Shown here piece after piece: positions 7,981-15,895 of a DNA stretch of 33,047 bases (within the stretch, counting starts at the first letter, position 1; each line of letters begins with the position of its first letter). The notes below the pieces were generated by a model, which did no database searches, was not told the DNA's origin, and was given only the letters and a program-made list of their open reading frames with translations. The stretch spans positions 1 through 33,047 of the forward strand of contig JAACJQ010000283.1 in NCBI GenBank assembly GCA_016879935.1, written 5' to 3'. The DNA comes from Archangiaceae bacterium (GTDB lineage Bacteria > Myxococcota > Myxococcia > Myxococcales > Myxococcaceae). Both the position numbers and the translations under genes were made by a program.

Positions 7981-9156
7981 TCACCGCTCGCAGCGGCAGA
8001 CGGCGAGTTTTCCCGCATCAGGCAGCTCCTCGCAGGCCCACGTCGATGACACCAGGCCCCCATCTGTCGAGCAGGAGCACGGGCGATCGCGCTGAACGGC
8101 CAGGCCCGCGTCGGTGAAGCAGTCGACGGGACAGGCGCAGGTGGCGATGGTTGGTGCGGTCGGTCTCGGGGCTCCGCAGGAATAGCGGCCCGAGAGTTCT
8201 GGCTGTGCGCAGGCGCAACGTGGGAACTCGGTCGGAACGGCGCCTGCGTCGCCAGTTGGCCTGGTAACGAAGACGAAGCCTCCGTCGTCAACCGCGAAGG
8301 TCAACGTGCGTCCGTCGGGTGTTCGACACTCGGGCGGCCGTGGCGGGCACTCGCACGTTCCTACGAGCCCGCCGTCGAGCGGGAGGCAGGTCGCGTTGCC
8401 GGTGTACCAGGGCGTCGAGGGTTGCCAGCCCTCACAGGGGCAAGTCAGTCCCTCGGAGGTTGCCGAGACGAAATTGCCGTCGACGGTTCGGCAAACCGGC
8501 GGCGTGCACTCGCATTGCGCTTTGACGATGCCCTGACCGGCAGGGCACGTCAGCTCTCCCAGTCGGAGCCCTGATTCGGACGGACAGGCGCACGTTCTCC
8601 CCGTCGCGATGCCGATGAACGTCCCCTCGTCGTCGGTGCAGCCGGAGGTGAAGGACTTGTTGTGCACCACGACCCCGTTCGCGAGGAAAGCGTGAAACGG
8701 GTGGGCGAGCACGAGGTCGAACACCTCGACGACGCCCGCGTCGAGCACCCGCTGCTCGACTTGCACCTGGTGGAGGTTGCCCTCGCGCGCGACGAGGAGC
8801 GAACGCCGCAGGCCCAGGGCCCAGTCTCCGGCGCTCGCCCAGGTCGTCGCCAGCGGGTCCCACAGCGGGTGGTCTGGCGTGCACACCAGCTCGAACGACG
8901 GCCCGCGGAGAACGATGGTCTCCCGCGTCGCACGGCGAACTTCGCAGACGACTGCCGCAGTTTGCTGGCCAGTCGAGGCGTCGACCGCGATGAGTTCGTC
9001 ACCGACCTGCATGTCTTCGATGGGCTTGTCGCCGGTTCGGGTGGTGACCCGCGCTCCTCGCCCGATGCAGCTGGAGCGTGGACAGCCGAGGAGTGTGCCG
9101 ACCAACAGCCCCGCGAGGGTCAGCTTCTGCGTGAGGTCTCGCTGCAGACGTGTCAC
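7981..9156 (-). CDS. lipoprotein with Hint (intein-like) domain and four six-Cys repeats
   Basis: 391 residues from a GTG at 9156 that overlaps the stop of the preceding gene (GTGA). A lipobox TLLGC (Cys25) ends a short signal peptide. Five residues later Cys30 begins a 137-residue Hint domain: block A is CIGRGARVTT plus IEDMQVGDEL, block B is TPDHPLW, and the C-terminal block is VEVFDLVLAHPFHAFLANG, ending VVHN at residue 166. There is no homing endonuclease. The residue after the terminal Asn is Lys, then Ser, so classical splicing (which needs Cys, Ser or Thr there) is doubtful, while cleavage remains possible. Residues 173-391 are four repeats of the pattern C..CxC..C..CxC (24 Cys), starting at residues 173, 222, 277 and 346. 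It is the last gene of a three-gene operon. Confidence 0.85.
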   Translation of the reverse strand: MTRLQRDLTQKLTLAGLLVGTLLGCPRSSCIGRGARVTTRTGDKPIEDMQVGDELIAVDASTGQQTAAVVCEVRRATRETIVLRGPSFELVCTPDHPLWDPLATTWASAGDWALGLRRSLLVAREGNLHQVQVEQRVLDAGVVEVFDLVLAHPFHAFLANGVVVHNKSFTSGCTDDEGTFIGIATGRTCACPSESGLRLGELTCPAGQGIVKAQCECTPPVCRTVDGNFVSATSEGLTCPCEGWQPSTPWYTGNATCLPLDGGLVGTCECPPRPPECRTPDGRTLTFAVDDGGFVFVTRPTGDAGAVPTEFPRCACAQPELSGRYSCGAPRPTAPTIATCACPVDCFTDAGLAVQRDRPCSCSTDGGLVSSTWACEELPDAGKLAVCRCER

Positions 9157-10410
9157 CGGCCGAAGACTGCCCAGACGAGCGTGCCGACGCCAGAGACGAC
9201 GAGGGCGACGCCGACCACCGCCACTGCACGCCACGAGCGCCGCCTTGCCGTGCGCTGCTCGAGCACCTGACTCAGCGAGCGCGACTCTTCGACGATGGCC
9301 GAGGCTCGGGTGCGCAGGTCGACGCCGAGCAGGTTCGGCGCGTCGCAGAACACGCAGTTCACCACGAGCTGGTCGGTGGTCGCGCTCAGCGGGCCGCGAC
9401 ACTGGCGGCAGGTGCGCGGCGTGCCCTCCTTCTCGGAGCCCAGCGCCGCGAAGTGCATCGTCAGCACCCGCAGCGCCTGTCGGTCGACGAGCAGGTACCG
9501 GAACAGCGCGAAGCCACCCGTCACGGCACCGAACACGAAGACGGAGCTGAAGCTCAGCGCCTGGCTCAGGCTTCGACCGTTCAGCTCCGCAGCGAGAATG
9601 CCGGCGCCGCCGACGACCCACGCAGCCATCAGCGCGCGGGTGACGTTCTTGAACGTGCGGTCGAGGCTCGGCGCGCTCGGCTGGTCGAGCACTGCCTTCA
9701 CCGCGGCGACGGAGTGTGACGCGACGACCGCCGCCGCGCGCACCTTCTCTCGAAGCGTGTCGGGCACCGAGAGGCGTTGACCGCACCAGGGGGCACGGCA
9801 CCTCTGGCTCGAACGCTGGCGCCACGGGGCCCCGACATGACGGGCATCGCAGCACCTGCTGGGGGAGCGGGGCTTCAGCTTCTGGCTTTGGCTGCAGCAC
9901 GCTCTGAAGCGTCGCGGCCAGCTCTTCGAACGAAGCGAGTTCACCCGGCGCGCGCGTCATCGCGATGGCCTTCAGGTCGAGCGTCTTTCGCTGGAGGAAC
10001 AACACATGAAGGTCTTCGGCCGCGTCGTTCAGCTCGTCACTCCCCTTCGGGAGCAGGTCGAAGAAGCCCGGCAGCCGCCGCGTCGCGCGCCGTACGAAGA
10101 CCCGCTCGAGCTTCGAGAAGGGAACGTCGAAGCCGTCATGAGGGCCGCCGCGAATTCGCAGGCGGTCGGCTTCGACCTCGAGGTCGCTGGGCTGCATCAC
10201 GCGGGCGCGCTTCAGGTTCCGTTGGGCGAAGCCCATGACGAGGAGCCCGGGCAGGATGAGCAGAATGAAGAACAACTCCGCCGAGAGCGACACGTAGTAC
10301 AGCACGACGAACAGCACGAAGCCGGGCAGCCAGAGCAGCGCGCTCCACCAGAGTGCTCGTACGGCCCCTTCACCGGTCTGCAGGGGAAACCGCCACGCCG
10401 GAGCCGCCAC
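9153..10410 (-). CDS. membrane protein with two zinc ribbons; apparent one-base frameshift
   Basis: The frame from a GTG at 10410 breaks at a run of five G (plus strand) at 9789-9793. Removing one base joins it to the downstream frame and gives a sensible 418-residue protein. Two membrane segments lie at about 20-62. A hydrophilic region at about 72-175 resembles a bacterial PH-like domain. A zinc ribbon at 189-209 has the form CPSC..CPWCG, and its second half is restored only by the frame correction. Two more membrane segments lie near 258-306, a second ribbon CRQC..CVFC at 334-355, and a final membrane segment near 395-415. The start abuts the stop of the 4-TM gene upstream, and the stop overlaps the Hint lipoprotein start. 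Either a sequence error or a genuine lesion; function unknown. Confidence 0.7.
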
Positions 10411-11033: not shown

Positions 11034-11543
11034 ATGCACACCACTTCGTGGAACGTCGAGAAGGCTCGCGCGCTGGTCGACGCCGAGCGGTCGCGGGTGC
11101 GCTCGTTCCTCTCGGGCGATGGGGCTGATCAGTCGGCGATGTTGCCGGCGCTCCATGCGCTGCAGAAGACGTTTGGCTTCATTCACGCCGACGCCATCAG
11201 CGTGGTCGCGCACGCGCTTAACGTCTCGAAGGCGGAAGTGAAGGGCGTGGTGTCGTTCTACAAGGACTTCCGCACCCAGCCGCCGGGCGCGCACGTGGTC
11301 GCGTTGTGCAGAGCCGAGGCGTGTCAGGCGAGAGGCTCCGAAGCGCTCGCGGCGCACCTGCAGCAGACACATGGTCTTCAGCCTGGGCAGACGAAGCACG
11401 GCGTGACGCTCGAGAACACGTACTGCCTGGGTAACTGCGCGCTCGGGCCCGCGGCGCTCGTCGATGAGTCACGGCTCGTCGGCAGGCTCGACGTCGCGAA
11501 GGCTGATCAGCTCGTTGGCTCCCTGAAGGAGCGCGAGTCGTGA
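11034..11543 (+). CDS. fdsG: NAD-dependent formate dehydrogenase gamma subunit (NuoE-like)
   Basis: 169 residues in the 24-kDa NuoE family. The thioredoxin-like fold carries one [2Fe-2S] cluster, and its four ligands are visible as CRAEAC (Cys92, Cys97) and CLGNC (Cys131, Cys135). The N-terminal helical part has the family segment LPALHALQKTFGFI and GVVSFYKDFR. The subunit passes electrons within the diaphorase part of the soluble formate dehydrogenase. ATG 11034 was chosen by family length; a TTG at 10953 (with GGAG upstream) and an ATG at 11007 are alternatives in the same frame. It overlaps the next gene by four bases. The neighbourhood separates it from respiratory complex I. Confidence 0.92.
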   Translation: MHTTSWNVEKARALVDAERSRVRSFLSGDGADQSAMLPALHALQKTFGFIHADAISVVAHALNVSKAEVKGVVSFYKDFRTQPPGAHVVALCRAEACQARGSEALAAHLQQTHGLQPGQTKHGVTLENTYCLGNCALGPAALVDESRLVGRLDVAKADQLVGSLKERES

Positions 11544-13051
11544 AGCTCTTCGTTCCTGCAGACGCGGCCGCGCAGTCGGTGGGCGCCGACGAGGTGGCCG
11601 AGGCGCTCCAGTCGGCGTTGAAGGCGCGCGGGCTCGACGTTCCGTTGATCCGCACCGGCTCGCGCGGGCTCACGTGGCTCGAGCCGCTCGTCGAGGTGAA
11701 CACGGCGTCGGGGCGTCAGGGCTTCGCCAACGTGAGCGCGCTCGAGGTGCCCGGACTGCTCGATGCCATCGTTGGTGGTGAGCCGCACCCGAGCGCCATC
11801 GGCCTCGTCGAATCATTGCCTGCCTTGGCCCGCCAACGTCGGCTCACGTTCTCCCGCGTCGGCGTCATCGACCCGCTCTCGCTCGAGGACTTCCGCGCGC
11901 ACGGAGGCCTGCGGGGCTGGGCGCGCGCGATGGAGCTCGCTCCCGAGGCCATCGTTCAGGAAGTGACGACGTCGCTTTTGCGTGGACGCGGCGGCGCAGG
12001 CTTTCCCGCTGGCATCAAGTGGAAGACGGTCGCCGAGGCGAAGGGCGCGCGGAAGTACATCGTCTGCAACGCCGACGAAGGTGACTCGGGCACGTTCGCC
12101 GACCGCATGGTGATGGAGGGCGACCCGTTCATGCTGCTCGAAGGCATGCGCATCGCTGCGCGCGCCGTCGGAGCGAGTCACGGCTTCATCTACGTTCGCT
12201 CCGAGTACCCTCGCGCGGTCTCGGTGCTCGAGCGCGCCATCGCGGTGCTGCGCGAGAGCCGCTTCCTCGGCACGGGCTTCGACGTCGAGGTGCGCGTCGG
12301 CGCGGGCGCGTACGTGTGCGGTGAAGAGACGTCGCTGCTCGAGAGCCTCGAAGGCAAACGCGGTCAGGTGCGCGCGAAGCCACCGCTGCCGGCGCACGAG
12401 GGCCTGTTCGGCAAGCCGACGGTCGTGAACAACGTGCTCACGCTCGCGGCGGTGCCGTGGATTCTGGAGCACGGTGGCGCGGCCTACGCAGCCCTCGGCG
12501 TCGGGCGTTCTCGCGGCACCATGCCGATTCAGCTCGCGGGCAACGTGAAGCACGGTGGTCTCTTCGAGCTGCCACTCGGCGTCACGCTGCGCGAGCTCAT
12601 CTTCGACTTCGGCGGCGGCACGGCCTCGGCTCGTCCCGTTCGCGCGGTGCAGGTCGGCGGTCCCCTCGGTGCGTACTTTCCCGAGAAGCTGCTCGACACG
12701 CCGCTCGACTACGAGGCGATGGCGAAGGCGGGCGGCATTCTCGGGCACGCCGGCGTCGTGGTGTTCGACGACACGGTGAACCTCGCGAAGCAGGCGCGCT
12801 TCGCGTTCGAGTTCTGTGCGCTCGAGTCGTGCGGCAAGTGCACGCCGTGTCGCATCGGCTCCACGCGTGGTGTCGAAGTACTCGACCAGGTCGCCGCCGG
12901 AGTCGAGCCCGAGAAGAACCTCGCGCTGGTGAAAGACCTCTGCACCGTGCTCACCGACGCGTCGCTCTGCGCGCTCGGCGGCCTCACGCCGCTGCCCGTG
13001 TTGTCGGCGCTCGAGCACTTCCACGAAGACTTCACGCGCCGTTCGAGGTGA
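11540..13051 (+). CDS. fdsB: NAD-dependent formate dehydrogenase beta subunit (NuoF-like diaphorase)
   Basis: 503 residues. The N-terminal 100 form a thioredoxin-like domain fused to a 51-kDa NuoF module, the arrangement of FdsB and HoxF. The FMN and NADH site shows GRGGAGFPAG (149-158), NADEGDSGTF and GAYVCGEETSLLESLEGKRG. The C-terminal [4Fe-4S] ligands are in ESCGKCTPCRIGS plus a Cys in DASLCALGG. It reduces NAD+ with electrons delivered by FdsA and FdsG. It starts at GTG 11540, overlapping fdsG by four bases, with AAGGAG eight bases ahead. Confidence 0.94.
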   Translation: MKLFVPADAAAQSVGADEVAEALQSALKARGLDVPLIRTGSRGLTWLEPLVEVNTASGRQGFANVSALEVPGLLDAIVGGEPHPSAIGLVESLPALARQRRLTFSRVGVIDPLSLEDFRAHGGLRGWARAMELAPEAIVQEVTTSLLRGRGGAGFPAGIKWKTVAEAKGARKYIVCNADEGDSGTFADRMVMEGDPFMLLEGMRIAARAVGASHGFIYVRSEYPRAVSVLERAIAVLRESRFLGTGFDVEVRVGAGAYVCGEETSLLESLEGKRGQVRAKPPLPAHEGLFGKPTVVNNVLTLAAVPWILEHGGAAYAALGVGRSRGTMPIQLAGNVKHGGLFELPLGVTLRELIFDFGGGTASARPVRAVQVGGPLGAYFPEKLLDTPLDYEAMAKAGGILGHAGVVVFDDTVNLAKQARFAFEFCALESCGKCTPCRIGSTRGVEVLDQVAAGVEPEKNLALVKDLCTVLTDASLCALGGLTPLPVLSALEHFHEDFTRRSR

Positions 13052-13054
13052 CTC

Positions 13055-15895
13055 ATGTCGTTCAGCAAGGACTTCGACCAGGGCACGCCCGTCGTCTCGA
13101 ACCCCGAGCGCGTCACCGTCACCATCGACGGCCGCTCCATCTCGGTTCCGAAGGGCACGTCGGTGATGGCCGCCGCCGCGCAGCTGGGCACGTCGATTCC
13201 GAAGCTGTGCGCCACCGACATGGTGAAGGCGTTCGGCTCGTGCCGGCTGTGTCTGGTGGAGATTGACGGCCGGCGTGGAACACCCGCCTCGTGCACCACG
13301 CCTGCTGAAGAAGGCATGGTCGTGCACACGCAGACCGACCGATTGCAGAAGCTCCGCCGCGGCGTGATGGAGCTCTACATCTCGGACCACCCGCTCGACT
13401 GCCTCACCTGCTCGGCGAACGGAGACTGCGAGCTGCAGGACATGGCGGGCGCGGTCGGCCTGCGAGACGTGCGCTACGGCCACGACGGCCAGCAGCACCG
13501 CACCGAACCCAAAGACGAGTCGAACCCGTACTTCACGTTCGATTCGAGCAAGTGCATCGTCTGCAGCCGCTGCGTGCGCGCGTGCGAAGAGGTGCAGGGC
13601 ACCTTCGCGCTCACCATCGAGGGCCGTGGCTTCGGCAGCAAGGTCGCGACGGGCGCGAAAGACTTCCTCTCGAGTGAGTGTGTCTCGTGTGGCGCGTGCG
13701 TGCAGGCGTGCCCGACCGCGACGCTCAACGAGAAGTCCGTCATTCAGCTCGGCACGCCGACCGGCGTGGTCGAGACGACGTGCGCGTATTGCGGTGTCGG
13801 CTGTGGCTTTCGCGCAGAGACGCAGGGCGACCGCGTGGTGCGCATGGTGCCCTCGAAGCGCGGCAAGGCGAACGAAGGCCACTCGTGCGTGAAGGGCCGC
13901 TTCGCGTGGGGCTACGCCAACCACCAGGACCGCGTCACGAAGCCGATGATTCGCGCGCGCATCACCGACCCGTGGCGTGAGGTGACGTGGGCCGAGGCCT
14001 TCACGCACACCGCGAACGAGCTGCAGCGCCTGCAGGCGAAGTACGGGAAGGACTCCATCGGCGGCATCACCTCGTCGCGGTGCACGAACGAAGAAGTGTT
14101 CCTCGTGCAGAAGCTGGTTCGCGGCGGCTTCGGCAACAACAACGTCGATACCTGCGCGCGCGTCTGTCACTCGCCGACGGGCTACGGGCTCAAGCAGACG
14201 TTCGGCACCTCGGCCGGTACGCAGGACTTCAAGTCGGTGGCGAAGGCCGACGTGGTGCTCGTCATCGGCGCGAACCCGACCGACGCGCACCCCGTGTTCG
14301 CGTCTCGGCTCAAGCGGCGGCTGCGTGAAGGCGCGAAGCTCATCGTGGCCGACCCGCGGCGCATCGACCTGGTTCGTTCTCCGCACATCGAAGCGGCGCA
14401 TCACCTCGCGCTGATGCCCGGCACCAACGTCGCGCTCATCAACGCGCTCGCGCACGTCATCGTCACCGAAGGCCTCGTGAAGACCGACGCGGTGAAGGAG
14501 CGCTGTGAGCCTGCCGACTTCGAGAGCTGGGCGCGCTTCATCGCGAACCCCATCAACTCTCCCGAGCAGATGGAGCAGCACACCGGCGTGCCCGCCTCCG
14601 AAGTGCGCGCGGCGGCGAGGCTGTACGCGACGGCGAACAACGCGGCCATCTACTACGGGCTCGGCGTCACCGAGCACAGCCAGGGGTCCACGATGGTGAT
14701 GGGCATGGCGAACCTCGCGATGGCGACGGGCAACCTCGGCCGCGACGGCGTCGGCGTGAATCCACTACGCGGGCAGAACAACGTGCAGGGCTCGTGTGAC
14801 ATGGGCAGCTTCCCGCACGAGCTCGCCGGCTATCGCCACGTCTCGGACGACGCGACGCGCGAGCTCTTCGAAGGGCTCTGGGGTGTCTCGCTCTCGAGCG
14901 AGCCCGGCCTTCGCATTCCCAACATGCTCGACGAAGCCGTCGAAGGCCGGTTCAAGGGCCTCTACGTGCAGGGCGAAGACATCGCCCAGTCGGACCCGAA
15001 CACGCAGCACGTCGTGAAGGGCCTCGAAGCGATGGAGTGCGTCATCGTGCACGACCTCTTCCTCAACGAGACCGCGAAGTACGCGCACGTGTTCTTTCCG
15101 GGCAGCTCGTTCCTCGAGAAGGACGGCACGTTCACCAACGCCGAGCGCCGCATCAGCCGCGTGCGTCAGGTGATGCGCCCACTCACTGGCCTGGCGGACT
15201 GGGAGGTCACGCTCGGGCTCGCGAACGCGCTCGGTATGAACCTGAAGTACTCGCACCCGAGCGAAGTGATGGACGAGATTGCGCGGCTCACGCCGACGTT
15301 CGCGGGTGTCTCGTACGCGAAGCTCGACCAGCTCGGCAGCGTGCAGTGGCCGTGCAACGAGAAGGCGCCGACCGGCACGCCCATCATGCACGTCGACCGC
15401 TTCGTGCGCGGCAAGGGCCGCTTCATGTTGACCGAGTTCATTCCCACCGAGGAGCGCACGGGCCCGAAGTTCCCCCTTCTGCTGACCACGGGGCGAATCT
15501 TGAGTCAGTACAACGTGGGGGCGCAGACGGCGCGAACGGCGAACGTCGCGTGGCACGACGAAGACGTGCTCGAGGTGCACCCGTTCGACGCCGAGAATCG
15601 CGGCGTCAAGACGGGCGACCTCGTCTCGCTCGAGAGCCGCGCGGGTGAGACGACGTTGCGCGCGGTGGTGACCGAGCGGGTGCAGCCTGGCGTCGTCTAC
15701 ACGACGTTCCATCACGCGAAGACGAACGCGAACGTGGTGACGACGGAGTTCTCCGACTGGGCCACCAACTGTCCCGAGTACAAGGTGACGGCGGTGCAGG
15801 TGTCGCGCGCTGCCGGCCCGAGCGCGTTCCAGAAAGAAGACCGGCGGCGTGACGTGGCGTTGCGCCAAGTGGAGGCTCCTCATGCCACGCGTTGA
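13055..15895 (+). CDS. fdsA: NAD-dependent formate dehydrogenase alpha (catalytic, Mo-bis-MGD) subunit
   Basis: 946 residues, close to known FdsA length. Cofactor sites in order: [2Fe-2S] at Cys52, 63, 66, 80; a His112-Cys116-Cys119-Cys125 [4Fe-4S] site as in NuoG; two ferredoxin-type [4Fe-4S] sites at Cys167-177 and Cys209-219; a [4Fe-4S] at Cys243, 246, 250, 278; then the Mo-bis-MGD domain. The Mo ligand is a Cys in CARVCHSPT (Cys371, followed by the conserved His372), so this is a Cys enzyme, not a selenocysteine one. It oxidises formate to CO2 in the cytoplasm and should be reversible. ATG follows fdsB by three bases; its 3' end overlaps fdsC. Confidence 0.95.
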   Translation: MSFSKDFDQGTPVVSNPERVTVTIDGRSISVPKGTSVMAAAAQLGTSIPKLCATDMVKAFGSCRLCLVEIDGRRGTPASCTTPAEEGMVVHTQTDRLQKLRRGVMELYISDHPLDCLTCSANGDCELQDMAGAVGLRDVRYGHDGQQHRTEPKDESNPYFTFDSSKCIVCSRCVRACEEVQGTFALTIEGRGFGSKVATGAKDFLSSECVSCGACVQACPTATLNEKSVIQLGTPTGVVETTCAYCGVGCGFRAETQGDRVVRMVPSKRGKANEGHSCVKGRFAWGYANHQDRVTKPMIRARITDPWREVTWAEAFTHTANELQRLQAKYGKDSIGGITSSRCTNEEVFLVQKLVRGGFGNNNVDTCARVCHSPTGYGLKQTFGTSAGTQDFKSVAKADVVLVIGANPTDAHPVFASRLKRRLREGAKLIVADPRRIDLVRSPHIEAAHHLALMPGTNVALINALAHVIVTEGLVKTDAVKERCEPADFESWARFIANPINSPEQMEQHTGVPASEVRAAARLYATANNAAIYYGLGVTEHSQGSTMVMGMANLAMATGNLGRDGVGVNPLRGQNNVQGSCDMGSFPHELAGYRHVSDDATRELFEGLWGVSLSSEPGLRIPNMLDEAVEGRFKGLYVQGEDIAQSDPNTQHVVKGLEAMECVIVHDLFLNETAKYAHVFFPGSSFLEKDGTFTNAERRISRVRQVMRPLTGLADWEVTLGLANALGMNLKYSHPSEVMDEIARLTPTFAGVSYAKLDQLGSVQWPCNEKAPTGTPIMHVDRFVRGKGRFMLTEFIPTEERTGPKFPLLLTTGRILSQYNVGAQTARTANVAWHDEDVLEVHPFDAENRGVKTGDLVSLESRAGETTLRAVVTERVQPGVVYTTFHHAKTNANVVTTEFSDWATNCPEYKVTAVQVSRAAGPSAFQKEDRRRDVALRQVEAPHATR

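Follow-up and report, generated by a model that had tools for sequence, protein, structure and literature searches.

In the present study, we describe a lipoprotein that carries a Hint domain between its predicted lipid anchor and a Cys-rich tail, encoded in a 33,047-nucleotide stretch of Archangiaceae DNA (hereafter the window). The sequence favours, with somewhat better than even confidence, a self-processing lipoprotein built on a Hint like that of type-A BILs, in which both junctions would be cut and the Hint removed. Such Hint lipoproteins are a new form of the known self-processing Hint/BIL domains, and no description of this architecture was found in open-access papers. If active, such lipoproteins would cleave or religate their own chain behind the lipid anchor, so that surface proteins could be released or remodelled without a protease.

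The coding sequence (7981..9156, minus strand) specifies 391 amino acids plus a stop and begins with a GTG that overlaps the TGA stop of the upstream gene (GTGA). Residues 1-25 (9082..9156, minus strand) form a signal peptide with the lipobox LLGC, recognized by sequence, which places the protein among the lipoproteins with Cys25 as the predicted lipidation site. Together with the PRSS spacer (residues 26-29; 9070..9081, minus strand), Cys25 makes up the entire stub ahead of the Hint domain. The Hint itself covers residues 30-166 (8659..9069, minus strand), as assigned by a family profile that matches at exactly 8659-9069, by structure and by conservation, and its key residues are Cys30, Thr93 and His96 in block B, Asp147 in block F, and His165-Asn166. 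The cargo, residues 167-391 (7984..8658, minus strand), is a tail with 24 Cys whose first residue, Lys167 (8656..8658, minus strand), occupies the +1 position behind the Hint and does not vary within the lipoprotein group. The translation agrees exactly with the initial annotation, which had read a TLLGC lipobox with Cys25, a 137-residue Hint running from Cys30 to VVHN166, and a Cys-rich tail. As for the surroundings, the upstream gene (9153-10410, minus strand) appears to be split near 9.8 kb by a frameshift, either genuine or due to assembly: the N-terminal part is open in one frame, read down from 10410, and the C-terminal part in a different one (9944-9153). The genome also contains a paralogue, L194, with an open frame of 622 aa. 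Adjacent genes at 11540-15895 (plus strand) encode a NuoF-like protein (Complex1_51K) and a molybdopterin oxidoreductase whose Fe-S domains are of NuoG type, a pair that is perhaps an NAD-linked formate dehydrogenase.

When the window protein alone was compared with Pfam, PT-HINT (20.9 bits, E 4e-4) and Hint_2 (19.8 bits) scored below their gathering scores of 27.7 and 28.4, respectively. The family profile, by contrast, matched the solved type-A BIL 2lwy of Clostridium thermocellum with an E-value of 5e-18, followed by inteins and hedgehog. In the AlphaFold model, the Hint domain has a pLDDT of about 97 and most of the tail lies below 50. The best Foldseek matches include Tetrahymena BIL2 and 2lwy, and VIA-align with the AlphaFold Hint as query gave Z 19-21 against RecA and DnaB mini-inteins, BILs and hedgehog. 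The residues of the HINT superfamily, Cys1 and the block-B Thr-x-x-His, are present as Cys30, Thr93 and His96, and the profile and the model leave little doubt that the window protein adopts the horseshoe fold of that superfamily. A homing endonuclease is ruled out because the Hint is only 137 residues long. A Hint domain free of endonuclease had been proposed before, with Pfam searches and structure prediction as the check, and the family profile and the model bear it out where Pfam alone stays below threshold.

The layout is not a product of chance, since the layout and its residues recur in a paralogue from the same genome and in dozens of relatives. The paralogue, located in the same 9.5 Mb genome, reads TACGPVVS-CVARG...VVHNKQ. 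Matches were found in 17 of 96 genomes of the bacterial family, up to five in one genome, mainly in the genus of the window and a few others; genera g3, g6, g7, g8 and g20 contained only other Hints, mainly of toxin type. When a profile blind to the +1 position was used for the search, all intact Myxococcaceae relatives had the same layout (16/16). Relatives occur in Myxococcaceae, Archangium sp. MAGs, Nannocystis, other Polyangia and Planctomycetota. The stub ahead of the Hint is only 1-7 residues long, the lipobox Cys is preceded by Gly, Ala or Ser, and most relatives have 0-6 residues between the lipobox Cys and the Hint Cys, L062, L064, L070 and L206 having longer linkers. In a weakly resolved tree of 104 Hints (137 columns), the lipoproteins of Myxococcaceae and Nannocystis form one supported group, and the lipoprotein forms L051, L061, L068, L063/L065, L165 and L071 fall outside it. 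The lipoprotein label needs at least 10 changes on this tree, of which the starred branches alone force 2. No widely shared partner gene was found, flank matches being confined to a few pairs of related loci. One Hint lipoprotein of a Myxococcales MAG (L044:1176-2885) has two Hints alternating with Cys-rich segments, each ending in HN-Lys. Hint-like proteins with a VGD end in place of VHN were also observed (L014, L024, L117 and L118), all of which keep Cys1; L014 and L024 have no lipobox, and L117 and L118 lie in proteins of 639-685 aa common to several genomes of the family.

To assess conservation, we used a set of 31 lipoprotein Hints labelled by eye, from which three toxin-type proteins (L099, L107 and L119) caught by a lenient lipobox regex were removed by hand. 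Cys1, the block-B Thr and His, the penultimate His, the Asn and the +1 Lys are each present in 31/31, and the block-F Asp, mostly Asn in other Hints, in 27/31. In characterized type-A BILs, Cys1 forms a thioester and the terminal Asn cyclises, which results in cleavage at both ends and less often in splicing (PMC4031507). The window protein would be exported by Sec and then lipidated at Cys25, and the Hint would fold outside the cytoplasm. Cys30 would form a thioester with the lipidated stub CPRSS, and cyclisation of Asn166 would break the Asn166-Lys167 bond. Once both junctions had opened, the Hint would be removed from between the lipid stub and the Cys-rich cargo; most thioesters would be hydrolysed, as in known type-A BILs, and the cargo would be shed from its anchor once delivered. 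Here we infer the lipidation, both cleavages, their timing, the fate of the cargo and its location in the cell. Among the net outcomes we favour shedding of the cargo, albeit tentatively and with a little less than even confidence, since characterized type-A BILs mostly cleave and since an anchor that delivers and then releases suits such varied cargo.

Self-processing is consistent with the near-complete conservation of the catalytic residues of both half-reactions and with the fact that the closest folds and relatives of the window Hint are self-processing domains. In addition, copies that no longer have HN (L014, L024 and L025) are also without lipobox. Against it, an oxidising periplasm could block Cys30, and, among members in which the Hint Cys adjoins the lipobox Cys, several have a weak lipobox and signal peptidase I might cut instead. 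The initial annotation had proposed that N-terminal cleavage frees the Cys-rich part from its anchor. Such a separation is plausible from the intact catalytic residues, but because the residues of both half-reactions are invariant, a cut at Asn166 seems as likely as a cut at Cys30. It is therefore improbable that hydrolysis at Cys30 alone sheds the Hint and the cargo as one piece: this would explain the intact Cys1, block-B Thr and His and the short stub, but it has no need for the invariant His165-Asn166 and Lys167. The Hint might also be a structural module of the lipoprotein that does not react, as the persistence of the related HN-less copies L014 and L024 could suggest. We regard this as unlikely, since the known catalytic positions are invariant or nearly so in the 31 lipoprotein Hints and structure alone needs none of them.

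Among the conserved peculiarities of this family, the +1 Lys is the most revealing. It is not a search artefact, because the profile stops at HN and yet all 16 intact Myxococcaceae lipoproteins found with it have Lys; in the toxin-type Hints of that family this position is occupied by Asn, Thr, Gln, Glu, Ile, Gly and others. For the distant set, the scan of genome contigs used VHNK among its patterns, so that its Lys counts are partly selected. Two Hints from other Polyangia in which no lipobox was seen (L211 and L225) also have +1 Lys, indicating that Lys is strongly tied to, yet not confined to, the lipoprotein or secreted group. Lys is the sole residue past the C-terminal Hint of L209, which ends in HN-Lys-stop, and a single Lys joins two Hints in L228, where the second Hint directly follows HN-Lys. 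The C-terminal Hint of L208 ends in HN-Tyr-stop, and L058 / L160 (a Nanoarchaeota record) has at least four tandem Hints with KAG, KG and KC as separators. Taking L209, L228, L058 and L208 together, one residue past Asn suffices and is usually Lys in this group, and, as far as sequence can tell, the +1 Lys belongs to the Hint unit. We considered and rejected a +2 Lys as an extracellular-matrix sorting signal, as this is contradicted by data on myxobacterial lipoproteins in which +2 Lys accompanies location in the inner membrane and it is +7 Ala that is linked to the matrix (PMC3222651). Sorting thus fails to explain Lys167, except perhaps where the Hint Cys directly adjoins the lipobox Cys.

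The Lys had initially been taken as an argument against normal splicing. This holds for canonical splicing with Cys, Ser or Thr, but a residue so strictly conserved does not mark a dead junction, and shedding alone leaves it unexplained. The side-chain amine of Lys167, or its alpha-amine after Asn cyclisation, could attack the Cys30 thioester; we judge this route less likely than not, yet it is the main alternative to shedding and a strong rival. The release put forward initially is one of two principal outcomes. With an attack by Lys167, the Hint would be excised and the lipidated stub joined to the cargo, the bond being an isopeptide one when the attack comes from the side chain, and the product would be a shorter lipoprotein rather than a soluble one. 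When type-A BILs splice, they can do so via the C-terminal fragment's free amine (PMC4031507), and for BIL2 of Tetrahymena, a top fold match, splicing that ends in an isopeptide bond to Lys has been reported (PMC8616854). Splicing onto lysine would also fit the +1 Lys in every lipoprotein Hint, its retention as the only post-Hint residue (L209) or between tandem Hints (L228 and L058), and the presence of Cys1 in 61/61 collected Hints with +1 Lys versus 37/43 others. The acceptor Lys of BIL2 sits in the neighbouring domain, however, and the partly selected Lys counts of the distant set weaken the argument. To our knowledge, no known intein uses a +1 Lys in cis, which also counts against splicing onto Lys167.

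Returning to self-processing as the preferred reading, the cargo and the selection on the Hint offer further support. In most Myxococcaceae members the cargo is one module containing five or six Cys (C...C.C.DGG.G...C...C..C), and the tails of the window protein and of L004, its closest relative, contain 24 Cys each. The cargo of L043 (4950-6632) is an alpha/beta-hydrolase (Chlorophyllase / PAF-AH like; Chlorophyllase 7e-8), which would be a handy enzyme reporter for release, and that of L071 is Ig-like by a sub-threshold match. Although the cargo is unrelated among members, the Hint occupies the same site behind the lipobox. The Cys-rich tail of the window protein had no Pfam match, and no toxin family was detected anywhere in the 391 aa; L003, a candidate homologue of the tail in the same genome, was discarded as a multihaem-cytochrome-like protein matched via its cysteines. 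The Hint is under purifying selection, with dN/dS of 0.11-0.28 in nine close pairs and 0.47 for the distant pair of the window protein and L004, and the tail generally evolves faster. A search for empty sites with the full, fast-evolving tail as query returned only a Hint-bearing homologue, and a profile of the cargo module, run against 92 genomes, matched only Hint lipoproteins and not a single homologue without a Hint. A decayed or selfish mini-intein of no use to its host could leave broken copies such as L015, L026/L029 and L028 and a +1 residue other than Cys, Ser or Thr. Such an origin is very improbable in view of the purifying selection, the absence of an endonuclease, the constant site with unrelated cargo and the lack of Hint-less module homologues in those genomes.

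These observations suggest a bacterial use of the chemistry of protein splicing, by which surface proteins would be shed or attached again. The invariant +1 Lys poses the question of whether lysine can be the cis acceptor for an intein-like domain; if so, this would be an added splicing chemistry as well as a tool for ATP-free isopeptide ligation. A wider proposal, which we put forward as an unlikely extension, is a widespread extracytoplasmic class of Hints in which the invariant +1 Lys, rather than Cys, Ser or Thr, is the splicing nucleophile and joins the lipidated stub, or the entire upstream protein where the Hint is C-terminal, to lysine by an isopeptide bond, remodelling lipid-anchored surface proteins.

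Compared with known systems, the window Hint shares with polymorphic-toxin PT-HINTs the superfamily, the His-Asn end and the presence in the same bacterial family. PT-HINTs, however, vary at +1 and are buried deep in proteins that are mostly long, with a further C-terminal stretch of some 100-130 aa behind them, whereas the window Hint begins at residue 30 of a lipoprotein of 391 aa in which no toxin domain was found. Hedgehog Hog-Hint has the same fold (Z 19), the thioester chemistry of Cys1 and a link between Hint and lipid, but it adds cholesterol to the upstream signal, whereas the lipid here would be on the stub before the Hint; Hog also has a sterol-recognition region and no terminal His-Asn, in contrast with the His-Asn-Lys and Cys-rich tail seen here. 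The class 1 mini-inteins Mtu RecA and Ssp DnaB resemble the window Hint in fold (Z about 20), Cys1, TxxH, block-F Asp and His-Asn, and differ in their +1 Cys/Ser/Thr nucleophile, replaced here by Lys in 31/31; the host here is a variable secreted lipoprotein, with no endonuclease and, in searches with its fast-evolving tail and the cargo module, no empty sites found. BIL2 of Tetrahymena thermophila (BUBL1 polyubiquitin-like locus; PDB 6y75 and 6tmm) gave top Foldseek matches and is a self-processing Hint for which isopeptide ligation of the N-terminal flank to a lysine has been reported (PMC8616854), but it is eukaryotic, flanked by ubiquitin-like domains, not part of a lipoprotein, and has its acceptor Lys in the next domain instead of at +1. 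The type-A BIL 2lwy is alike in fold (VIA Z 19.6), is the best sequence match among solved structures (5e-18), and likewise has Cys1, a C-terminal His-Asn and no Cys/Ser/Thr at +1 (here His165-Asn166-Lys167). Type-A BILs also reside in variable rather than conserved housekeeping proteins, as do the present Hints with their varied cargo and fast-evolving tail. In contrast with 2lwy, the Hints described here mostly follow a lipobox at a distance of 0-6 residues, and those of the lipoprotein group always have Lys at +1 and mostly keep the block-F Asp.
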